Positions 7,098 through 57,898 of a stretch of 64,000 bases of DNA are shown in pieces (the first letter of the stretch is position 1; each line of letters starts with the position of its first letter). Below the pieces are notes generated by a model. It worked only from the letters and a program-made list of their open reading frames with translations. It was not told where the DNA came from and made no database searches. The position numbers and the translations under genes are program-made. The stretch spans positions 992,001 through 1,056,000 of the forward strand of contig JAACJK010000220.1 in assembly GCA_013368325.1 (NCBI GenBank), given 5' to 3'. The DNA comes from Ephemerocybe angulata (Eukaryota > Basidiomycota > Agaricomycetes > Agaricales > Psathyrellaceae).

Positions 7098-7103
7098 CTA
7101 GAC

Positions 7104-7303
7104 TACGGTGTTCGAGAAGGACATGGATCATTTTCGCGCGCGCGCGACCTGGATCTGTTAGTGGCAGTGCTTATGGAGTCTGGCAGTTGCGTCTTGGAGG
7201 GCGAATTCTGATAGTTCTCGACTTCGCTAAGGGAAAGTAACTACATAGGCATGTAGCAGTAGAGTATATACATCGAATTAAGTGCTTTCTTGGACCTCCA
7301 AAG
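7104..7303 (+). repeat. Left TIR of the 14.8-kb element
   Basis: 200 bp, inverted copy of 21749-21948. It includes a (GC)n run near 7136-7147. The left TSD copy CTAGAC is directly outside, at 7098-7103. Confidence 0.9.
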
Positions 7304-7717
7304 TAGATATGGACTCAAAGACATGACGTCCATGGATGTTGCAAGCATGGAGGGCGCGCACCTGGATCCTCGACGGCACATACTTAGCTTTCAAATATTG
7401 TGTGAACCTGCGTGACGCACCGGTAACGGGCCTCCTTGGCTAAGGCGAGGGCAGCAGTTCGATCCCAGCTGAACGCGGTTTTGCAATTTTTTTAAATAGC
7501 CGAATCCAGCGAGCTAAGCTAAATTGAGAGGCGCGCTGACTATGGCAGTGCCATGCTATTGATTTTGCTGCTCGGCAGTGATGCCGAGATTAAGTAAGAT
7601 CATTTCCACGGTTCCTGGCGCGTCTAGCAGAAGCGCCGATATTATTGCTCAGTTGTGTCTCGTCTCTTCCTCTTCTTTCAAATCTTATCCTATCCTAATC
7701 CTAGTAAACGTATCTTA
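7304..7717. other. Gene-free segment inside TIR element
   Basis: Likely promoter and 5' UTR of the large gene starting at 7718. Around 7430-7470 there is a tRNA T-loop-like stretch (GTTCGATCC) but no complete tRNA fold. Confidence 0.4.
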
Positions 7718-10700
7718 ATGTCAAGGTGAGTGTCATGCTACTGCTTTAGGAGGCCTTATTTACATCTTGTTCTGTAGATCTTACCGTAGTCATCATCCAG
7801 AATTTCGCGCCGGGGAAACGTCGCGCGCCCAACAAGGTCCGTCGAACTGGTCCACACATTTAATTAGTGGCTAATCTAGCCGATTTACAGACTCGACCTC
7901 ACATCTACGCCTCATTCTCCCTCTCCCTGCTTCCTCGTCGTCCCGGACACGCGCTGCATCACCGCCAGGTTCCCTCGAGACCCAGCCGCCCCGCAACGCG
8001 ACAACCACTGAAACCCCGGCCTCGCTCGGGATACAACCACCAAGCACGACAAATGGCGAGCCAGAGAAGCGAGGGAGGGGCCGGCCACGCACAAAAGAAG
8101 TGGTTCTTGGGCCAAAACGGCCTCGTGGCCGTCCTCGAAAGGCCTTGGTGGTCGAGACTGGCCCGCCAGCGCCTGCAAAGCCCAGAGGCCGCCCTCGAAA
8201 AGACAAAGGCGCAGCGGGGGAGTTCCGCGTTCGCGTTAGCGCACAAAGCGGCCCTATTGTGAGTAATCATTGTTCTTCGGTGTCGTTCTGGGTATAAAAA
8301 CTCACGTGTAATTGTGCAGACGGTCCCGGGGGTGAAGGGGCACCTGCATCGACCCCATTTGCAGCCTCTCGCCCCACTTTTCTCGAATAACCGGAAAGCC
8401 CTGCATGGGGACATGCCCGCACCTGCGCCTGCCCCAATTCCGAGTAGCCCCGTCTCCCATAACGCCCATCCTCGATCCGGACCGAGCGTGCACATTGCAC
8501 CAGAGGAAGACCCCGAAGGGCCGGTGGACATCGACGAAGATGAAGAGACTGAGGCAAGCGGGAAGGGGATCGGCGAGGAAACGAGTGGTGGGGATGAGGG
8601 GGATGAGCAAGACGATGAACGCGAGAACGACGGAGATGAGCCCAGCGTAAACCCACATGTCCGGCATTCGCATCCGCCGTGGCTCCTCGAGCACTTTCGC
8701 AAGTGCATTCAGGCACTTCAGACCAGGGATGCAGATGGGCTGCCGGCACTCTACGCCAAAGACCGCACCTTCTGGTTTCAGCCCCCAGGAACCTGGTTCC
8801 TTCTCCAGTCGTCGCCCTCACCAGTCAGCCTGTACAAACCCCGGATGTTCGTCTGGGACCCGCTCGCACTTTACAAGAAGCTTCCCTGCCCGAGGTGCAA
8901 CAGAGTCCTCGGGCGTCATTCCACCATCTCCCAGCCCCGTCGTTGTGTTGATCTCACGACGACGTTTTGGATTGTGGGCTTCCGCTATCGCTGCCGCAAC
9001 TGCAAGCACCCGAAAACTGGGAAGTCAACTGTTACGTGGAGAAGCTGGGATCCACGTATCTTAGCTGCCATGCCCCGTGCCCTGTCTGCCCAATTCCCTG
9101 CTCGCCTTACGCATCGAAGTGCAGTTTCAAATGACCTTTTCTCGTGGATGCGATCATGCTTCCAAAACGGTATGGGGTCAGGGCAGTTTGCAGATGCCGT
9201 CCTTGCGCAGCATCTATTGCGCTATGATCAGCTTCACCTTCAGTATCTCGATTTCATTGCTCGGGGTGTTGCCGTATCAGAGTTGACTGGTCGACAATAC
9301 ATGTCCTTTCTTCCGTTTGATGACACCAGCCCAGAGGGATTCCGAGGCTTCGTACCAAGCGCGCGTTACTTCCGCGATATCTACGATACGTTCATGGACG
9401 AACACCGCCACCATTTCGAGCAGCATACCGCAATGCTTTCTGCCGTAGTCTGCGCTCTCGACCACAGCCATAAGGTGAGTTCTTTTAACTGTTATTGTCT
9501 ATCTACGTACCTTGCTGACAGTTGAGCCAATGTTATAGCTCCCAAAACGCATTGCCACCGTTAACCACCTGCCCGTCTTCGGTGCTCTGCTGTGCTTCAC
9601 CAATGAGAAAGGAGAGATTCGGGCACTGAACTTTGTGGCAACCAAGGCGCACTCGCAGTACGAGCTTACTCTCAAGGGCATCCGTGAATCGCTGGAACTC
9701 TATGGGCATGAATCGATCCAGATTGTCTATACGGACAATGTGACGGATCGAGCATTTCTCGAGTCGTCCTTCCCTTCCTTGCGTATGGGCGTGGTGCCGG
9801 TTGAGAAGTACAGCCACCTGCCGCTGTTCTCACTTCCCGATGGCGTACAACCTCTGGTTCGGCGGGATGAGAGTGCCATAAATGTGGCTATGTCAACGAT
9901 TCTCGCACATGCACCGGTCGAAGAAGCGGAGGGGGATCTGGCGATTGGGTTTGACTGTGAATGGAATGTGGGTGTGCTTGGTGATGGGCCCGGGGTAGAA
10001 AGGGGTGAGATAGCGGTTGTTCAGATAGCGTTCGAGAACCGGGTATATATATTACAGGTACGAGCAAACAGTTATATCTAGCCACATGGCACAGGTCTTT
10101 TAACTCATGATTCTATTTTCTTCTTAGGTTAGCAAAATGATAGAGCATCGTCGTCTTCCCGAAAAACTTGTGATGTTGCTCCAAAATCCTCGAGTGCGAA
10201 AAGTCGGGCGGATGGTTGCAAGTGATCTGAAGCAGCTAGAGGAAATCGTGAAGCCATCCTCCCCCTTCTCTGGTGCCGTGGACCTTGCAGCATATGCGAA
10301 AGAACGCAATGTTGTGTCGAATGCACGAATTAGTCTCTCAGACCTGTGTGCGATTGTTCTGGGCAAGATGCTTCGCAAGAACATTTCGGAGCGTTTCAGC
10401 ATGGCATGGGAACAGGACAACCTCACAGACGAACAAGTCCAATACGCTGCCTGCGATGCATATGCGCCATTGCTCATTTATCAAGAACTATCAAAGCTCC
10501 GTGTTCCCCAACCACTCCCAAGCATTCTACCTCCTCAAGGCACTGTCGACGTTCTAGTATACAACCAAGACAGATCTACAGTGCTTGCGAGCGGCTATAT
10601 CTCAGCCAGGCCTTTCCCCATCGAGTTTGACAACATCCACCTTACGCCCACCCGCGCACTTGTCACTATCACGGAAGTTCGAGTACCAGGCGCCCTCCTC

Positions 10701-13022
10701 ACGTCGCATCATGACCGCCCTCTCAGCTCATTTGGCCTACCCCCGTTTCAAGTGGTATGCAAGCGTACCTTCCTGCGGATGTACGATCCGCTCAGCTTCA
10801 AGCTCCCAGAACCACCCCAACCAATGTCCGTCGACGCCGCCACTAACGAGACGGATCAACAAGAAGGCGAAGGGGAATCATTAGCGGAGTTGGGGCAAGC
10901 CTATGAGACTGACGACGGCACTGGAAATCTCCTTCGCCAGTCAATGGGAGTGGGTGGAGAGGTGCCAGTGGATGATGAGGATGGGGACGCATCAGCTGGC
11001 CCGTCAGGCACCACAACGGCACGGCCGTTTGTCGATGCAACCAGCGACGCTTTGGGACAAGCAATGTCAGCAAAGTTGAAGCGCCCTAATACTCAGCAGT
11101 CGTCGAGTGACCCGGATTATGAAGCATTGAAGTCAAGGGTGCTGAAGGACTTGTTTCACGTTTTCAACATGCTTCGCATTTCGGCAAATCACTCACTTCG
11201 ACGAGAATTTGCTGCAGCACTTCGGGACATCCTTTTCGTGTTCGACAAGGAGGACCGTGCACGAATCACTGCTTGGGCAGCTTGCTTAGAAACACCACGT
11301 ACCTTTGAGCAGCTTATGGCATCGAACGCGGACTGGGTACAAAAGCATTCCCGCCGGTATGTCCCATCTCCTGAAGTACTTTTCCCACTGGTCGAGGAGC
11401 TGTTTCGCACGTATGGCCCATTGCAAGACGCCGCCACGAAGGAGCCTTTGTTTGGTCCCAAGCAATGGAAAACAGCATCGCAAATCCTTGACCTCATTCG
11501 GAAGGGTTACCTGTCTGACCCTGCAGGCATTGCACTGTACACGAAGATCGGAAATGATAAGAAGGCTGGAAACTTGCCAATATATCGATGCGCAAGGGGT
11601 ACAAGCTTCACTGAGGGTGTTCACTCGCAGCTTCGCTCGCGTTTGCCTACGGTTGGTGTCTCGATCCGACATATCAATTCCCGTCTCCCGGAGTATGTTT
11701 ACGTCCATAATAAACGGGTGAGTCTATACTCTTGATGGTAACTCATAACTTACCAAATAGCAGGTTGGAACTATGAATACCACGGGGAAGAAATATCGTG
11801 GTCACTATGACCCATGGATTATCAATCGGATTCAAGAGCGTTTGGCATACCTAGATGCCATTCTCATAAATCCGATCGAAATTCGTGGCATGGTAAATAC
11901 TGACCTTTACGTTCGCACTCAGGAGCGCCTGGGAATTCTTCCGATTCCAGATGACGTCCGCATCCAGAGCGCCATTGGAGAGTACAATCCCCAGGACCCA
12001 AATGCAAGGAAGCAAGAGCAAGCATACCTTGCAAGGATTCAAAACACCAAGAAAGCAGTGCTTCCTGTGCACACCCCTCAGGAGTACAAGCTCTTTGAAG
12101 AGCTGATGGTTAGCAGTCCTGCATTCAATTCCGCCTCGCGTGGCCCTGTATGGAAACTCGCTGTTAGGGTTTGGAATGAGCGAGCAGAACTGACGCACGG
12201 GGTCTCGTACAAGGTATGCAATAATTTATTATGTTATAACACATATAAATGACATGTCGACAGTTGATTGAGCATCTGAAGACCTCGTATGCATCCTTCA
12301 ACACCGGCGTTCGCATACGACAAACACTTTCCACCACCTCAGCGATCCGCCGTGACATTAATAAGCGAGCGCGAGATCCTTCACGTTCCGATGCAGCTCC
12401 CCAACTTACAGATCGCCCGTTAGCTCCCACTATGGTCACTGCCGGTCTCGACATTCCCATGGCCAGTTCCACTTCACTGCCATCACCACCATGCCCTCCT
12501 CCCCCGACTCCAGCAGATCAAGATTTTGATTTCCCGCCTCAGTCTGCATCGGCATCGACCCATCAGACGCCACCCGCATTTGCATACTCTGCCACAGCAC
12601 ATGCGTTAGCCCAGCGGCGCGTTGCTGAGGATACGGCACAAAGGCAGCAGCAGCCAATTACACCACCCACTCCCACACTCCCACCTCAACCTCCAACTCA
12701 AACATTCTCTCATGCTGTACGCGAGCTCGCTCGTCAGCGTGTTGCGAGCAGTGTTGCCCAACTCCAACCCCAGACAGCAGCTCCAAGTGGCCCACGCGGC
12801 CCACGCAAATGTCAGAAGTGCGGCTCGGCTGAGTGTAGTGGGCGAAAGCAAATCAAATACTGCTACAGCGGGCCTTGTCAGGACTGTGGCGAGGTCCTCT
12901 GCTACGGCCGTAATAGTAGGCGCCCCGGAAAACCATGCAGTCAGGCTTGGATCGGCTATGCTGAGGATCGTCTACCTGAGCTCCCCACTCTTCCACCCCC
13001 TTCCTGTAGTACCAGCTTGTAG
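7718..13022 (+). CDS. AT-hook/zinc/DDE-like transposase with embedded DEDDy 3'-5' exonuclease
   Basis: Eight exons (7718-7725, 7778-7836, 7891-8258, 8320-9474, 9539-10057, 10128-11717, ~11761-12213, 12264-13022), all in phase, give about 1636 aa. In order: three AT-hooks (GRGRPRTK, PRGRPRK, PRGRPRK; ~82-125); an acidic region; a CxxC...CxxC zinc module (~335-375: CPRCNRV, YRCRNCK); an RNase H/DDE-like core with candidate acids D526 (ALDHSHK) and D596 (VYTDN); a complete DEDDy exonuclease with FDCEW (D669, E671), SDLKQLE (D736) and YAACD (Y809, D813); a helical region; a segment with candidate third acid E1199 (FTEGVHSQLRSRL); a proline-rich stretch; and a C-terminal Cys-rich zinc module (~1567-1600). 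The exonuclease appears inserted between the second and third DDE acids. It is probably the transposase of the 14.8-kb element. Domain order is seen; the DDE assignment is inference. Confidence 0.82.
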
Positions 13023-13606
13023 TGCCCATCTGTAGCAGAAACACAATCTCCAATCTTATCTTCGCGAGTAGCATATCGAGTAGCATATCCGATAGAGCAG
13101 TAAATCATTGAAAATGTCAGAAATTCACCCGGAGCCAATCAAACGCCAATGCTCCCGAGTAGCAGAACGAACCGGTTCAAAAGAATCATGAGAAAAAGAT
13201 CCTTAATTCCCATTGGCTAAGCAATATCGACGCCGAGCGCTCAATCGACAAGGGCACCGAACCCTCTTCAGCATCCAGAAGAGCGTGCGTGAGTTCCCTC
13301 TTTTCCTTCCCCTTTTCCTCTCTTTCCTTTCTTGTATTTTCTTTTCTTTTATTAAAGCTGACCATTTCTTGGCACAACCATAGTCAGCGCGCCAATTGAG
13401 ACGGGCATTGCCAATCTCCCCACAGCCTAACCTTTTTGGTCTGAAAAGTGATCCTCAATTCTTATCGAAAGAGGATCACCTTACATCAGCAAGAGAAATA
13501 CATACTGATTGGATGTGATAGGAATGAGGGCAGGTGTGCAAATAAGTGCTCGTTCTATCGCCGTACATGATGTTTATGGAGCAACGATATCATACTGTTT
13601 ACAAGG
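13023..13606. other. Gene-free segment between convergent genes
   Basis: 3' regions of the exonuclease/transposase gene (+) and the integrase-core gene (-). It has T/C-rich low-complexity sequence around 13290-13350. No gene supported. Confidence 0.5.
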
Positions 13607-15227
13607 TCAGACCTGAAGGCGGTTACGTGCTAAAGTAACTATGTGATAGAAAATGGTCCACCCGTCACTGGGAAGCAGCTCTGGCGCACCAATACTCTGG
13701 TACAAATTCTCGTAGTTCTCGGCCTCATCCCGAGTTCCAAAACGGAAGAGACTCTGGTCCTCCCATTGTGCCAGCAGTCGATCAATATCTTCTGCAGGAA
13801 TCTTGATCAACTTATCCATACCACCGTAATCCTCAGGGGAAGAGTACATATCAATTCTGCGGGTTCCGGAGGGAAGAAGAATTTTGGCCTGGTAGCGGAC
13901 GCGATGGACTTGGTGCTCAAGGAGGAGCTCGTCGAGCTGTTTTTGGACAATCTTTGCCCACAGCCACCGTGCAAGTCCGCTATGCAAGTGATTGAAATAT
14001 CTCTGTAAGTGCTAGGGAAAACATGCAGTGATTGAGATACCCGTACCTATGAAAATCGTCGTTTGACTGATATCCGGCATCCGACTGCCCAATACGATAG
14101 AAATGAAGAATATTTGCGAGGTGTTTTTCCCATAAGGGCCTCCAACTCCTCTCGCGAGTGACATTCTGGGGAGACTTCACCGCTGAATGGGAAGGAACTT
14201 TCTCCTCCGAGATGTGAGGCTGGTATCTCTTTCTATAGGATAAGGATAGTATTAATGTTATATCAGCTTCGTAAATAGAAATAGACTAACCGGAGCGTCT
14301 GTACAAGCGAAATCAGAGGTCCGAGTTCAGACCCTTTATCACTGGTCGATGAAAGTGGCATTCCTAGAAAGATATAGATCAGAATAATGAATGGGTTCTC
14401 ATAAAATAGCTCGAGGCTGACCTCCTAGCTTTTGCACAGTTCGAAGATACACAAGCACAGGAACACGACTATGTCGGGCATTGGGAACTGCAAAAAGAGC
14501 GAGCTCCATCCGGCTGTACTTGTCCACAATTCCATAGACTGAAATACCCATGGAAAGCGCAATCTTCTCGTGCCCGTCGACACACCACTCTTCATTCGGA
14601 CCAGATGACCAAATCCCGTGCTTGTGTACCTTACGTGTGCCTGGGTGCCGGTTAGCGGCCTGAACTGGGTTCTCTGCTTTCGCAAACTGTATGGTAAAGT
14701 CACTGAAAAAATATTAACATGATATTGTCAAAGATAATGTACTGTATGGCATACCGTGATGCATGAACTCCAGTAAGTGCCAATTTCTCCTTAATAGAGC
14801 GACCTCCTAGTCGGCCGAGTGGATCCTGCTCCAGAACCGAAAGTATGGCAGCGCCCTTCTCTACATCCGTTAGTCCGCTTCTACGGACAGTCTTGATTTG
14901 AAACCTCTTCATGGCTTTCTTTATGTACGAGAGGCTAAGAAAAAGTGTAAGAAGGCAACGACAATTCTGTGATGATATGGAACTATACCTGACGACCTTG
15001 CCACAGTCCTTCTGAAGTCGCGCTGGAATTTCGCGTTGAAAGACACCTTGGTTGATGTATTTCTGGAGGCGTTCTGGAAGATCTGGTATATCTTCCACTT
15101 TAAAGAGGTGGGTCAGTTTCACTATCTGAGATCGTATAAAAAGGTCAGGCTCACAAATAGGACGGTCACTAAATTGATTTCGACCAGAAGAATTGTTCAC
15201 AAATGGCCTCCGGTCGTCGTCTGACAT
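13607..15227 (-). CDS. Integrase-core (rve-like) domain protein
   Basis: Six exons on the minus strand (15227-14989, 14934-14755, 14702-14422, 14363-14291, 14232-14047, 14000-13607) join in phase to 450 aa. The N-terminal ~140 aa include a helix-turn-helix-like segment (GRLGGRSIKEKLALTGVHAS). The catalytic core follows: first acid in NEEWCVDGHEKI, then IVDKYSRMELALFAVPNARH, second acid in TSDKGSELGPL, and E in VTRERSWRPLWEK, fitting D-D-E. The C-terminal block (VHRVRYQAKILLPSG) is typical of the eukaryotic putative integrase-core family found in fungal repeats. It should cut and join DNA ends in the nucleus. It lies in the same TIR element as the larger exonuclease-containing protein, so either could be the recombinase. 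The last acceptor was chosen because only it keeps the RYFNHLHSGL frame. Confidence 0.8.
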
Positions 15228-16119
15228 CTTTGTTCGAATGAGATAGATGTGGAGTGGGGATGAGCAAGTGTGGGCGGGTGTAGTTACGCTTCTGAATATC
15301 CCCAGCTTATGTACCTTGAGGAGCTTCGAACTTAGAGATTTACAAGGAGTTCTAGGCCAGCTCGCAGCGCACAGTGAGCGAGAGTTTATTGTGAATCATA
15401 CTGTGCAATTACATCGCATAATTACATTGGCGTCATGACAGAGACAGCTGACCGAGCTAAAACTCAAGATAGATACGTTCCCGCCGCTCCCCGGTGTCAG
15501 GTGTGCAAAAAAGAGGTAAAAAATGCTATAACAACGTGCTGAACTGGATTGTCTGACTCAGTTTATCTGTGGCAGACAATTGTTTCCTCGCCATGAGTGT
15601 CAGCAGCAGCATGGATTCCGCTGCAAGCGTTGCATTTAATCACGAATGACCAGGTCAGCCGAGCAGATTTCTTACTCACCCTACCACCCTGCATTATTAA
15701 ACTGCCCGCTTTCAAACGGACAGACTCTGATTTTGCCGAGAATTCAGGGAACTCTGAGTCTAGGTTCTGCATGTGCAGCATGCATAAACCGTCACCTGCT
15801 TGACCCTGCAATATGTCCCCCATGGTCTTCTTCGCCTCCCGGAGGCTCCATCAACTCATGTTTGGGTTTTGACCAGATATTTCATGGATTGGGGCGGCGA
15901 TATCATAGAGAACGAGGGGGAACATACCCTTCAGGATAACGTACACTTGGTCAACGCCCCGTGCATGGTCATGGGTCAAATTTAGATCAAAGGCTTCCGC
16001 TTTCGGTCAGACACGCGCTTGCCTGTAGGCGCCGGCAAGGTGCCGGCGGCTTTATGCACACATGGGCACTTTGAAGTAAGCGCCAACTCGGCGCCAACAG
16101 TCCTAGTGTCCTATGTACA
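15228..16119. other. Gene-free segment between divergent genes
   Basis: Shared upstream region of the integrase-core gene (-) and the alpha-kinase gene (+). Short open frames are present without splice or motif support. Around 16025-16050 there is a short GCCGGC-rich direct repeat. Confidence 0.5.
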
Positions 16120-16127
16120 TATAAATA
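16120..16127 (+). promoter_or_regulatory. TATA box of alpha-kinase gene
   Basis: TATAAATA, 96 nt upstream of the ATG at 16223; spacing agrees with fungal TATA promoters. Confidence 0.5.
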
Positions 16128-16512
16128 CAGGTGCAGAAAACAGCAGACAGACCAGTTTTAACTCGTACACAACTCACTTTCCTCTCTTACATTTGCTCTT
16201 TTTACCAACTATTTACGTGGTTATGGCGCCCTGCAATGGTTGTTCTCGCAACTTCCCCCAGCTCGCTGTTGGAGTGCGCTGTGGCCGTTGTCAGATGAAG
16301 AGGCCCATCCCCAACGCTGATGACTGGGGTGCCTGTACCTCCTGCGGTCGGGTTTTCGAGTTTTTGGACGGTGATACCTGCTTCGCTTGCGGTGATGGTG
16401 GTGAGTGTATTCATTTTGCCATGATTTTGCCCCCACAATTTTCATGACTAACTTGCTGTAGATGGCGCACTACGTGATGCCAGAGAGGCAATCACCAACC
16501 CAGTGAATCCGC

Positions 16513-16705
16513 TGATACGACCGGTGTGCAGCTACCCATGAAAGTACGGAAAAGGTTGGCGCTAGCAGGATTCGAACCTGCGACCTCCACCTATAGCCTG
16601 TGTTGCTCTACCACTGAGCTACAGCCCCGTTGCTAGACTGAGTATTACTCAAGTCCAGAGTTGCCACCCCCCGCTCATCCCCAGTAGTGGTTATCAACCC
16701 CATCA
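16513..16705 (-). repeat. TRIM LTR copy 1 (3' LTR)
   Basis: 193 bp, containing a tRNA-like gene at 16557-16628 in the element's sense. It appears identical to 17023-17215 and has one difference seen from 57706-57898. Confidence 0.9.
16557..16628 (-). tRNA. tRNA-like gene in TRIM LTR copy 1
   Basis: 72 nt with tRNA layout: D arm GCTC-AGTGGTA-GAGC, T arm GCAGG-TTCGAAT-CCTGC, acceptor GGGGCTG against TAGCGCC with one G-G mismatch. A box (TAGCTCAGTGG) and B box (GGTTCGAATCC) are both consensus and a TTTT run follows. The anticodon arm pairs poorly and lacks U33, so this is better read as a Pol III promoter or pseudo-tRNA than a working tRNA. Confidence 0.5.
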
Positions 16706-16717
16706 TCTCCCCCACAC
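16706..16717 (-). promoter_or_regulatory. Polypurine tract of TRIM
   Basis: Minus strand reads GTGTGGGGGAGA directly before the 3' LTR (TGATG). The last eight bases, GGGGGAGA, and the LTR start TGATG match the same junction of element A at 55159-55171. Confidence 0.8.
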
Positions 16718-17000
16718 AATGAAACTTGACGTCCTCGTCAACGGAGGTTATGCGCAGCCATGATTCAAGCACTCGCTTATACAGCAGCTGGCAAGAACTC
16801 ATCTGTCACGAATGCCCCATTCCACGATGACGACAGAGCCGGTACAGTCATGAGCTAATAGCACTCGCTTGTTCAGCAGCTGACTACGCCCACCGGAACC
16901 CCACTCATTCCATCTATGTGTTAGAGATAACGGCACCCTTCTCTTTCCTTCCTTAGGCAACATGCACAACCAACCGATGAGTTTGGAGGCCAAATGAATG

Positions 17001-17020
17001 ACCCCTCGCGGTGGGCTCCA
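17001..17020 (-). promoter_or_regulatory. Primer-binding site of TRIM
   Basis: Minus strand reads TGGAGCCCACCGCGAGGGG directly after the 5' LTR and a TC spacer. It is complementary to a tRNA 3' end finishing in CCA (tRNA identity not determined) and is the same PBS as in element A at 29059. Confidence 0.85.
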
Positions 17021-17022
17021 GA

Positions 17023-17215
17023 TGATACGACCGGTGTGCAGCTACCCATGAAAGTACGGAAAAGGTTGGCGCTAGCAGGATTCGAACCTGCGACCTCCAC
17101 CTATAGCCTGTGTTGCTCTACCACTGAGCTACAGCCCCGTTGCTAGACTGAGTATTACTCAAGTCCAGAGTTGCCACCCCCCGCTCATCCCCAGTAGTGG
17201 TTATCAACCCCATCA
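17023..17215 (-). repeat. TRIM LTR copy 2 (5' LTR)
   Basis: 193 bp direct repeat of 16513-16705; tRNA-like gene at 17067-17138. Confidence 0.9.
17067..17138 (-). tRNA. tRNA-like gene in TRIM LTR copy 2
   Basis: Identical in sequence to 16557-16628; same intact A and B boxes and degenerate anticodon arm. Confidence 0.5.
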
Positions 17216-19415
17216 CCGCGCACGCACACGGGCCCAGATGGTCGCAACACCCTTTCTTCCAGAGTGTACGACTCACAGGAGGCCGGCACCGACAGCGGAT
17301 TTGACGCTCATGACTACGCAGTACGTACCACCATCCAACCACGCAAAAATATTCCACTAATTGTTATGTAGCGCCAGCAGCATGCTGAGCAGGTCCTAGC
17401 TCACATGGCTAGCGGTTATGCCGAGGCCATGAACCGTGGCCCGGCGGGAACACGCATTGCGCCACCCAAGTTGAAGGGTAATCCTACGGGCCAGGCTGGC
17501 GGACCTCCTGGAAAGCCAGGCAACCGACTGAATGTCAAGGTTTGTGTCATGTGTTACAAATATATTATACGTGCAGCTGTCTGACTACTTAACCCGCAGG
17601 TGTCCAAGGTAACGGACTACGATAATGGGCGCTACCGCACAGGCCCACTCTTTAATGCGATAAGTGTTAGCTACCTTGAGGATACGCCAATGGCGGATAT
17701 TCGCAAGGTTTTTTTGACACTCACGGACAATACATACATGAAAGCAACTGGCTACCGTGTCTGGGAGATGTAAGTCGCTCTTTTTTTGTGTTCTAACTGT
17801 ACTAATTGTTAATCAGGGAAGAAATAACTGTTCTGTGGACCACGTCGAAGACTGTTGTTAATCCCGAGTGGATTGATGATACTAAGACTCTTGGGCATCT
17901 TTGGCGTCATGCGACTGACAGCACCCACGGTACACTTTACGTCTCGAAGATCGACATGTCGCGAAAGGTCCTTGACTTCCATCTCGTTGTCAATCCCGAC
18001 CCCGACCGCGTTATAGTCGAGGAAGATGCTGACACTCCTGTAAAGGTACGTGACAGGTCTCGATGCATAATTCTGATTATTGATGACTTATTTGCACCAG
18101 GAAAACCCAACCAATCGTTCAAAGCGCGCAAACAGTGTTGCTGCCTCCGATCTTCAGACTTCGAATGGGAAGAAACCTCGTAAGCATCTGAAGCTCTACC
18201 ATCAGACAAATAACTAATCGTCGCCAATACAGGTGCTGCGACCGGAAAAGACGCATATCGCACCATCGTTCACCGGAGTCCCGGCACTGTCCTCAACGTC
18301 GAAAAGGGATCCTACATCTCGAATGGAGTGGGCGGCTACATATGGGTGGTGGATCCTACGAGGCTCAAAGCTATTATCGAGGATAAATGCTTTGCCTCTG
18401 GTGAGACGAAAGAAGTGTACAAGGTAAGTCGCTCACTCCATAAGTACCATGCCCGCATACTCATGTTACCTCGAGATGCTTATTGCTGATAAAAGTTACG
18501 CTGCTAAGCGCTTCTTTTATATTGGTGAACTCGGAAGCACCGTATCGCAAGAAGATAATCTATCCCACCTGAAGGATGAGCTCCTTCGAAACCGCCTTGT
18601 CTCTCGCACTGTCGATAAGTTTATGGCTGCAGCACGGACTGATAAAATTGCAGTGTACAGTGAGTTTCCTTGCCATCGGATACTAGCGGCGCTTACACAT
18701 TGATGAAATTAGACCTTCGAATGGATGAGTCGTTTATCGTCTCAGTTACCGACGGTCCTCACAAGGGAGACGCATTCCTTGTTGACCCCTTAATTAGCGA
18801 GACCGCCGAGGTTCGTAAATTCTCTGGCACTGAGGAGGCGGGCGCAAACAGGGAGGACCTCGTGGGAAGGACGGCCGATGCATTTGCGCACTACTCCTAC
18901 TTTGACTCCGATGGAACTATTGTTTTGGTCGACATTCAAGGTAAAAAATACTCGCATTTTTGTTTTTGAATTAACTCTAACTTTCTTACAAAGGAATCGA
19001 CTCAGAGACACTCCGAACGGGCTCCCGAAAGTCCCAAACAACTGCACACGGCCTCACTCTCTTTGACATTATGATTCATAGGTGAGCTTCTGGTATAACT
19101 TCCAGAACTTGGTGCTCAGATATTCTTATCCATAGCTCTACCATGCAATACGGACTTGGAGACGATGGCTGGTCTGGGATTCAGGACTTTGTGGAGCAGC
19201 ACGAATGCAATGGTATCTGCAGGGCGCTTGGGCTGACTGATGTGGATATCATTTATGATGCATCTTGGCCCGATACAACCAAGAGCAAGGGAAAGGCAAA
19301 GCAGGGGGCTAAGGATAAGTCGGACCATGAAGAGGAGGGCACTTCCTCCTCCAATGCTGGCAAGGGGCTTGGTGGGCTTGCCATATACAAGGGTGGAGAG
19401 GAGTCGGATGAATAA

Positions 19416-21748
19416 TTACTAGTCATGACGCCCGCCGCTAGTTAATGGCTCATTGCTCAATGTGCCTGTCGTGTTCAATATTGGGGGCTCGATACTGGTG
19501 TGTGTAGGTGAAAATTAAAAAGGAAATTCCTTTCCAAAAAAGGAAAGAAGAAGAAAGGGAGGAAGGGAAAGAGGAGGGAAGAGAAGGGTATCCCAGGACT
19601 TTGAGATGAAACAGAAGACGGCACACCCCAGACAAGATAGAAACAGCCACAAATTCTATATTGGGACGAGTTTACCTGCTTTTGCCCTGAAGTAGACGGG
19701 AATCCCGGTGCTAATGCTATCACATCAACACGATTTGACCTGTCTTGCGTCTGGATGAGGAAAATCTGGTGGATTATTGCCGAATTCGTCTGGATACCCA
19801 ACGGATACCCGGCGCTGATTCCGTTAGGTCCGTCGGTCAGATATGCGCGCGCAGGATCAATGACTATCTAGTTTCGTTGTTGCATTACTAGTTCTATTCT
19901 ACAGGCAGTTGCCCTGTACATGGGAAAAACCATGTAGACAGTCTATAAGGTCTACATATCCTCATGACTACGCTCTAACTCCCACCTCCAAGCCTTCATG
20001 CCCCGGGTCAGTGCTCACCTCTGTTCGCACTGGCACGGAATCCGGCGGTTTGGCGTTGGTTTGGCGCCCTGTCAAAGTGTCTGTGAGTAAGCACCAAAGT
20101 GCAGCGGAATCACAAAACGAGCTGGGCTCACATTCTCTTTTGATTTGGGCCCAGTTTTTATATCACTGAAGCTGGTGAGAGGAACCGACTGAGGAAGGGT
20201 CAAGTTTGGAGTTGGTTTGAAGGCTCGTTGCACAAAGCATGCTGAGAAAGCCTTACTGAATATAGAAAGTCATGTGCTGATGGGAAATTCAAACTCAGTA
20301 TCTCGGTATCCGCTACATACATGGACAGCGAGCCATATTGGGCGCTCTACCTATGTAAACATGACAAATCAAACCTTTATCTGTTTCGAGAGTCGAGACC
20401 ATTGTACATATGAGAGCCTCGACGGTTATTAGTACTTGGCTGATGATGTCAACGAAATCCGCAAGCCTTTGAGCTTGCGGATTTCGTTGACGTTGATGCG
20501 AAGTGCGGAGAAAAGACACAAACGATGACAATCGTTTGCAACCAAACCAACCACACAAACACAAAGGCTGAGTTCGTTGGAAGAGAGCGGCGTGGCCGGA
20601 GGGTACAATTCTCGACGGTTACACACCACACAAAACCAACTCCAAGAAGAGACTACGCTCGTGAGAGGCGTAGGCAAGTCTATTTAACTAAGCGGACTGA
20701 GGAAGTAGTATGTCTCGACTCAGTAGGCAAAGCGTTCCAGTTTCCGTTTCACGAATCCTCAAAAGCCGACGCGGCGTAATGAAAGAGACACAAAGTACGA
20801 TTGAGAGAGAGAGATTAAATCTGAAGTATACAAGCTAGAGAAACTAAGTGCTACGCGATTTTACTTTTATAGTGTGACCCCCTTGGTCACAGTCACGCCG
20901 CCTACGATTTTCCTTCAATTTTCTAGGGTACTAAGTCGTGCGGTCGCGAGGCTTGAGTCGGTTGTTGCTTGGTTTCGCGCTAAGTTGGACGCGGCGCAGC
21001 ATGCCGAGGATGCCGCTCCGTTATTGATGACCCTGTTTTCCTTTTATAGTGACGCGGGCTTATCCCTCTCGCGCTTGGACTCTCCGTTGTGGAGCTCCCT
21101 TGCATTTCGAGGGACTCACCCCTGTTATTCCTGTTACCCTTTTTCCGTGTGTGGTCGGACAGCCTTGGGCTGACGAGACCGCCTCGCGTGAAACGTCTAA
21201 GTCTGAAGCCGCCCGTGCCGAGTTTTGGGTTTTGCCGACGCGGTCGGAAAACTCCGAGTGCCGCGAGTGCCGTTGCTCCTGCTGCCTGGTATCCCTGCGC
21301 TGCCTTGCCTTTCCTTGCTCGATTGAGCGGGGATCCTTTGTTTGAGAATTCAGACGGCCTGACTCGCTATCCGACTCGCCAGGTGTGGTACCCTTGGGTG
21401 GCGAGGAGGGGTTGTTGTTGCTGGCGCCCTAAGTGTTTCGCTCGCACCAGGACTCTAAGACCTTTCGTACACGACTTGTCAAACCGCTCAGTCACCCTGA
21501 GGCGGTTTCAGTACTAATCCGTCTTACTAGTGATCACCAGTGTCCCCTACTCAAGCGGCGTCTGAAGTGCTCCCTTTTGTCTCAATCCCAGGTTCTGATC
21601 TTGGAGGCCAATGTAAGCGGTGTAGTGCTTAGTGCTCGAGTCGGTGCTACGACCTTTACACATACGACCGTAAAACCGCGAAAATAGTCCACGGTCGTAT
21701 CAACGTCATCATACCAGATGTACGCTCATCGCTGCGTTCGAATTTCGG
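19416..21748. other. 2.3-kb gene-free right part of the TIR element
   Basis: No gene with splice or motif support. A perfect 19-bp hairpin lies at 20448-20491. Sequence around 20950-21700 is C/T-rich with open frames that resemble no family I recognise; it may be decayed cargo or subterminal DNA. Confidence 0.45.
20448..20491. repeat. Perfect 19-bp inverted repeat (hairpin)
   Basis: GTCAACGAAATCCGCAAGC, a 6-nt loop CTTTGA, then the exact complement. It would fold as a strong stem-loop in RNA or single-stranded DNA. Role unknown. Confidence 0.85.
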
Positions 21749-21948
21749 CTTTGGAGGTCCAAGAAAGCACTTAATTCGATGTATATACTCTACTGTTACA
21801 TGCCTGTGTAGTTACATTCCCTTAGCGAAGTCGAGAACTATCAGAATTCGCCCTCCAAGACGCAACTGCCAGACTCCATAAGCACTGCCACTAACAGATC
21901 CAGGTCGCGCGCGCGCGAAAATGATCCATGTCCTTCTCGAACACCGTA
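21749..21948 (-). repeat. Right TIR of the 14.8-kb element
   Basis: Inverted copy of 7104-7303, followed by the right TSD copy CTAGAC at 21949-21954. Confidence 0.9.
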
Positions 21949-21954
21949 CTAGAC

Positions 21955-57705: not shown

Positions 57706-57898
57706 TGATGGGGTTGATAACCACTACTGGGGATGAGCGGGGGGTGGCAACTCTGGACTTGAGTAATACTCAGTCTAGCAACGGGGCTGTAGCTCAGTGG
57801 TAGAGCAACACAGGCTATAGGTGGAGGTCGCAGGTTCGAATCCTGCTAGCGCCAACCTTTTCCGTACTTTCATGGGTAGCTGCACACCAGTCGTATCA
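57706..57898 (+). mobile_element. Solo LTR of the TRIM family
   Basis: 193 bp, the same as the TRIM LTRs at 16.5-17.2 kb apart from one base seen. Ends TGATGGGG..CGTATCA, TSD GCGT (57702-57705, 57899-57902). Removing it with one TSD copy restores the dioxygenase frame (..KKKADAFATMGQ..). It arose by LTR-LTR recombination of a full TRIM. Confidence 0.92.
57783..57854 (+). tRNA. tRNA-like gene in solo TRIM LTR
   Basis: Same 72-nt tRNA-like unit as at 16557 and 17067, on the plus strand: intact A and B boxes, TTTT terminator 5-8 nt after, degenerate anticodon arm. Probably a Pol III promoter rather than a decoding tRNA. Confidence 0.5.

Follow-up and report, generated by a model that had tools for sequence, protein, structure and literature searches.

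We analyzed a 64,000-nucleotide (nt) stretch of the genome of the mushroom Ephemerocybe angulata (assembly GCA_013368325.1, contig JAACJK010000220.1, positions 992,001 to 1,056,000; hereafter the window, located on C120 in our contig numbering), in which a 14.8-kb unit at window positions 7098 to 21954 is bounded by terminal inverted repeats (TIRs) and a target site duplication (TSD). This unit is very probably a nest of transposons, i.e., an outer IS3EU-type element, a nested element encoding an IS256-like transposase, and further insertions; over half of its length consists of later insertions. The outer element is of an already-known kind, and the novelty lies in the nested element. With a confidence that falls just short of even, we propose that the nested element founds an undescribed, mushroom-widespread superfamily of eukaryotic DNA transposons, in which an IS256-like transposase contains an internal WRN-type, proofreading-like exonuclease and which moves by copy-out/paste-in through circles with 6-bp junctions, tandem arrays being the fossils of these circles. 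As a separate possibility within this reading, every alpha-kinase of mushrooms may be an IS3EU passenger.

The nested element comprises 5,864 bp (7530-13393), sits in the left arm of the outer element, and was recognized by alignment with a relative on C60, to which only window positions 7530-13393 match. Its two TIRs of 24 nt, 92% complementary, occupy 7530-7553 (left, plus strand; GGCGCGCTGACTATGGCAGTGCCA) and 13370-13393 (right, minus strand), and the 8-bp TSD AATTGAGA is found at 7522-7529 and 13394-13401 (no strand assigned). A preceding sequence-only reading of this DNA had tentatively interpreted the whole unit as a large cargo-carrying DNA transposon containing two recombinases on opposite strands and an alpha-kinase. 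All three genes are real, they are numbered consecutively (D9611_004974 to 004976), and they share a single flanking TIR pair and a single outer TSD, as they would if both recombinases and the kinase moved together. However, the plus-strand recombinase (gene 1) possesses its own TIRs and 8-bp TSD within the outer element, the same 5.87-kb gene-1 unit stands on C60 with the TSD GGCGCCTT and without outer-element ends, and five other kinase/transposase pairs lie on contigs with no gene-1 match. Joint movement of the three genes as a single 14.8-kb transposon is thus extremely improbable. What stands is a complete TIR/TSD element with a non-transposase alpha-kinase gene; the three genes do not form a single unit. 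The observation made in the sequence-only reading is confirmed, and its interpretation is partly supported.

Gene 1 (D9611_004974; 7875-13022, plus strand) encodes the predicted transposase of the nested element. In our model, the exons lie at 7875-8258, 8320-9474, 9539-10057, 10128-11717, 11764-12213, and 12264-13022; the start codon of this model is not fixed, and the public model differs in places. The protein contains AT-hooks, DUF6729, a DDE transposase domain with an inserted WRN-like DEDD exonuclease, and a Cys-rich C-terminal tail. The transposase D-D-E residues are conserved (codons 9460-9462 [D1], 9734-9736 [D2], and 11613-11615 [E]), and the acidic residues of the exonuclease fall within 9953-10457, i.e., between D2 and E, so that here a WRN exonuclease domain interrupts a transposase catalytic domain. 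Two structure models predicted a DDE core of the RNase H type, interrupted by an insertion between D2 and E, and in both the fold matched the IS256-family transposase of ISCth4, with a D1-D2 spacing of 70 residues (66 in ISCth4) and ~10% identity in the structural alignment. Unlike ISCth4, the nested element is eukaryotic and has introns, AT-hooks, DUF6729, and the WRN-like exonuclease between D2 and E. IS256-family transposases resemble those of MULE (Mutator-like) transposons (PMC7780238). We read the gene-1 product as an IS256/MULE-like DDE transposase in which a WRN-like exonuclease of the 3'-5' type follows the second D and precedes the E.

Several results weigh against this assignment. 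Model confidence was moderate (predicted local distance difference test [pLDDT], 72.5 and 69.6; predicted template modeling score [pTM], 0.51 and 0.44), and residue-by-residue superposition of D, D, and E is presumed. Moreover, the gene-1 protein of the window gives no match to the MULE model (PF10551), and, unlike MULEs, the nested family stays below that model, with sub-threshold matches in no more than 4 of the 32 relatives (best E, 0.021). Among the Pfam families listed for these 32 members there was no IS256-type model and no KDZ model, in a survey that did not align the nested transposase directly with that of Zisupton; KDZ and hAT structures were likewise missing among the structure matches listed, which says nothing on their absence. 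The TSD length of Zisupton (8 bp) agrees with that of the nested element. Kyakuja, a KDZ group for which 7-bp TSDs, CA..TG termini, and a lack of TIRs are described in PMC12730594, was ruled out by the 8-bp TSD, the GGC..GCC ends, and the 24-bp TIRs.

As far as our literature search goes, the nested family is undescribed: the open-licence PMC literature yielded no description of it and nothing on DUF6729, the PMC titles and abstracts listed held nothing on a combination of WRN-type exonuclease and transposase, and the titles and abstract starts listed did not mention an exonuclease insert in MULEs. A search of viral contigs gave 131 pattern matches to the nested family and no confirmed relative. 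For a copy on C152, TIRs were sought and none was established. Several gene-1 relatives (P0020, P0021, P0024, P0026 [Arthromyces matolae], and P0030) are located on contigs of 5.7-5.9 kb, approximately one element long, as expected from collapsed repeats or circles.

We then compared insertion sites across the family. The 8-bp TSD was exact in 4 of the 6 cases read, i.e., AATTGAGA and ATATTGGG in the window, GGCGCCTT on C60, and TCATTATG on C117 (1925331-1928568). Members also occur in head-to-tail arrays, with 2 copies of 5,870 bp on C60, 3 copies of 5,650 bp on C22, and short relatives on C117. Prompted by 6-bp spacers already noted between copies on C60, C22, and C117 (3366 kb), we searched the whole genome with the pattern AGCGMGCC-N(0-30)-GGCNCGMT, using the reversed pattern as a control. 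This search returned 42 strand matches (3 for the control), representing 30 distinct junction-like sites. The spacer was exactly 6 bp at 11 of these 30 sites; the other 19 were distributed over 17 different lengths with at most 3 sites each, and a length of 8 bp was found at a single site. The eleven 6-bp sites carry six different spacer sequences and include new loci on C47, C86, and C117 (1926 kb), as well as a site on C184 with the same spacer as C60, of which it may be a duplicate. In all four arrays whose outer flanks were read (C60, C22, C117:1926 kb, and C117:3366 kb; C47, C86, and C184 are not included), the spacer equals the 6 nt adjoining one end of the array, namely, the left end in C60 and the right end in the other three.

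These numbers have a counterpart in ISCth4, for which PMC7780238 reports that one end attacks DNA flanking the other, generating a junction with a 6- to 8-bp spacer derived from that flank; that a 6-bp spacer works best; that insertions carry 8-bp TSDs; and that either end can act as donor. The same source describes copy-out/paste-in as a major bacterial pathway. The nested element thus resembles ISCth4/IS256 in its predicted DDE fold, its 8-bp TSD, and its 6-bp junction spacer, which derives from the sequence flanking one end. In the corresponding scheme, one end of the nested element would attack the flanking strand 6 nt beyond the other end, producing a circle whose junction holds 6 bp of donor flank between the element ends. 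Such a circle would then either reinsert with an 8-bp TSD or recombine with its donor, and the latter outcome would yield arrays of the form element-6 bp-element, enclosed by a single TSD. The exonuclease may process branched or free 3' ends, which is a guess. Given the ISCth4-like 6-bp and 8-bp values and the use of both donor directions, we therefore infer copy-out circles, themselves deduced rather than observed, as the simplest explanation, and give movement of the nested family by copy-out/paste-in an even chance.

Two further origins of the 6-bp spacers were rejected: self-insertion beside an older copy predicts a sequence that is not in the outer flanks of C60 or C22, and simple exchange between TSDs would give 8-bp spacers, seen at only 1 of the 30 sites. 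A broader alternative is that the nested family moves by ordinary cut-and-paste as a MULE-like element, its arrays having arisen by unequal exchange or assembly errors and the 6-bp spacing being incidental. MULEs belong to the class of transposons with 8- to 9-bp TSDs, which the nested family would equally match; the units within an array show few or no differences; and similarity of fold is no proof of mechanism. Against it, the excess of 6-bp over 8-bp spacers (11 versus 1 of 30) is contrary to exchange between 8-bp TSDs, and assembly errors would hardly produce six different spacer sequences that, in the four arrays read, repeat the neighboring flank. We regard this alternative as a substantial possibility, albeit one held with well under even confidence; an assembly artifact, later recombination, or an unrelated recombination route are possible origins of the arrays.

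The copy-out reading also has to contend with the following points. The TSD at C117:3366060 is a near match (CGGAAAAC versus CGGAAACA, one A different), and the flanks of the C22 array show no matching TSD. Of the six spacer loci, three were the reason for the search, and a single array contains several of the 11 sites, rendering the statistics partly post hoc. Array copies are so similar that misassembly is possible. As side observations, the C117 array of the 835-bp relative (3366060-3434197) has its middle copy split by ~65.6 kb (3367558-3433176), with halves overlapping by 2 bp, representing either a giant insertion or a misassembly, and two nested-family copies on C133 (168601-170200) are arranged head to head, their ends 16 bp apart, and form a near-perfect palindrome.

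A precedent for multimers of a eukaryotic DDE transposon is KolobokP, for which TSD-flanked multimers are reported and a copy-out-like route is discussed in PMC9587614. According to that paper, KolobokP multimers share long direct repeats, unlike those of the nested family, and its transposase is a different one, with an added His-Me nuclease instead of the DEDD exonuclease of the nested element.

The outer element is framed by inverted TIR arms of 207 nt each, 97% complementary, at 7104-7310 (left, plus strand; starting with TACGGTGTTCGAG) and 21742-21948 (right, minus strand). The ends of about 200 bp with three mismatches described in the sequence-only reading were confirmed, in that base-by-base comparison placed 3 mismatches within the first 200 nt and 3 within the last 7 (6 of 207 overall). 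Also as described there, CTAGAC is repeated exactly just beyond both arms, forming a 6-bp TSD at 7098-7103 and 21949-21954 (no strand assigned). A search of the window's own E. angulata assembly (58.7 Mb) with the outer TIR recovered its own two arms (E of 4e-101 and 7e-94) and four weaker matches to elements with TACGGTGT ends. One of these, on C125, is 674 bp long and has its own 6-bp TSD (GTCTTG); the remaining three belong to a near-identical 1.38-kb locus on C77, C78, and C79, whose flanks gave no TSD match upon comparison. Given these shorter relatives, including one with its own TSD, the outer ends therefore belong to a mobile family. The 1.38-kb element and its flanks are nearly the same on all three contigs, which suggests haplotigs or duplicated contig ends.

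Gene 2 (D9611_004975; 13607-15227, minus strand) encodes an IS3EU-type integrase-like transposase (PF24764; E of 4e-8, above the family cutoff), with its D-D-E residues in the motifs VDGHEK, TSDKGSE, and TRERSW. Among 39 aligned sequences, which include both our own and the public model of the window's gene 2, the three acidic residues are present in 36 (D), 39 (D), and 37 (E). Gene 3 (D9611_004976; 16223-19415, plus strand, boundaries approximate) is an alpha-kinase gene (PF02816; E of 9e-11 and 5e-7 on two exons) oriented divergently from gene 2. The gene 2 product, an integrase-fold DDE transposase, would act on the long TACGG..CCGTA TIRs and make 6-bp target duplications, and the element would carry the divergent alpha-kinase as a passenger.

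The sequence-only reading had found the gene set of the unit unfamiliar. The remaining pair of integrase-type transposase and divergent alpha-kinase is, however, published for TET-bearing IS3EU elements of rusts, which have 6-bp TSDs, TIRs of >30 bp, and TAYGG..CCRTA ends (Kojima 2025, PMC12730594), and in all TET-bearing IS3EU families of that account the transposase and alpha-kinase are opposed, with the TET gene between them; the opposed kinase is reported for TET-positive IS3EU and is not defining for every IS3EU. IS3EU elements have TA..TA termini and a TSD of usually 6 bp (PMC10045372). The outer element shares with IS3EU of rust fungi and Tuber the 6-bp TSD, TIRs of >30 bp, TAYGG..CCRTA-type ends (TACGG..CCGTA in the window), and the opposed integrase-type transposase and alpha-kinase (PMC12730594), and accordingly fits an IS3EU-type element by its sequence features. 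It is set apart by its 207-bp TIRs and heavy nesting and, unlike TET-bearing rust elements, by the lack of a TET/JBP domain in the open reading frames (ORFs) scanned. Its host is a mushroom (Agaricomycetes), and the Agaricomycotina section of PMC12730594 lists no TET-bearing IS3EU. A relative on C147 spans 3,966 bp and has a gene-2 homologue between perfect 51-bp TIRs (TACTGTG...) with the TSD GGTGGG; its TACTG termini give TA..TA, yet not TAYGG, and an alpha-kinase was looked for there and not found.

We also considered whether the outer element belongs to a different superfamily with an integrase-like transposase (Ginger, a Polinton remnant, or an unnamed group). PF24764 is a broad integrase-core family, for which more than ten other places in the genome score without overlapping the gene-2 set, and the IS3EU placement, which weighs against it, is a placement by features. 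In contrast, the 6-bp TSD, the TA..TA/TACGG..CCGTA ends, and the opposed alpha-kinase agree with what has been published for IS3EU. Polintons are marked by polB, packaging ATPase, capsid, and protease genes; in agreement with the earlier reading, which had seen no polB, ATPase, or capsid gene, none of the four was detected in the 25 element pieces scanned (not every short ORF), and a Polinton/Maverick was rejected. Placement outside IS3EU is thus unlikely.

To examine the kinase, we searched the genome exon-wise on the best candidates (15 scored; not exhaustive) and obtained 7 alpha-kinase matches at 6 loci. All six loci (C120, C105, C18, C107, C67, and C87) lie within ~4 kb of a gene-2 homologue, at match-to-match distances of 1.4 to 4.0 kb, of which the largest is that of the pair in the window. 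Two of the eight gene-2 places detected (C147 and C22) have no kinase match, and proximity of this kind (4 kb or less from any of eight sites) is expected by chance at ~0.001 per kinase. Five of the six pairs are divergent. Tempering this association with IS3EU, the C18 pair lies on one strand, no TIR or TSD was found in the DNA examined for the kinase-linked relatives on C105 and C18, and the PF24764 search did not list the window's own gene 2, so kinases may have been missed too. In Coprinopsis cinerea, the transposase/kinase relatives P0051 and P0086 are both on contigs of 2,486,401 bp, which hints at linkage.

Removal of the nested element and one TSD copy (5,872 bp) from the 14,845-bp outer element leaves 8,973 bp, and subtraction of the later insertions gives an original length of ~6.5 kb. 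These insertions include a non-autonomous member of the nested family, 849 bp long (19486-20334, plus strand; GGCTCGATACTGG..AGCGAGCC) and flanked by the 8-bp TSD ATATTGGG at 19478-19485 and 20335-20342, and a probable solo long terminal repeat (LTR) at 20493-21705 (no strand assigned), which shares 99% identity across 1.2 kb with repeats that occur elsewhere in pairs ~13 kb apart. Two tRNA-like repeats of ~196 bp each (16510-16705 and 17023-17220, both minus strand), resembling short interspersed elements (SINEs), appear to fall between the first exon of gene 3 and its next coding piece, as read with the approximate gene boundaries. The cloverleaf is intact in three near-identical repeats (window 16557-16628, 17067-17138, and 57783-57854), labeled tRNA-Pyl with anticodon CTA by ARAGORN, and these repeats are probably a tRNA-derived SINE. 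Elsewhere, three 1.2-kb LTR-like copies with 15.2-kb spacing (C152:1009155-1040807) suggest a tandem LTR retrotransposon.

If our reading is true, the nested family, with its ISCth4 fold, 8-bp TSD, 6-bp junction, and exonuclease, would make eukaryotic copy-out via circles directly testable, together with the role of a 3'-5' exonuclease inside a transposase. As for the outer element, all six alpha-kinase loci detected in E. angulata adjoin IS3EU-type transposases, and these kinases are therefore more readily seen as passengers of transposons than as genes of the host.
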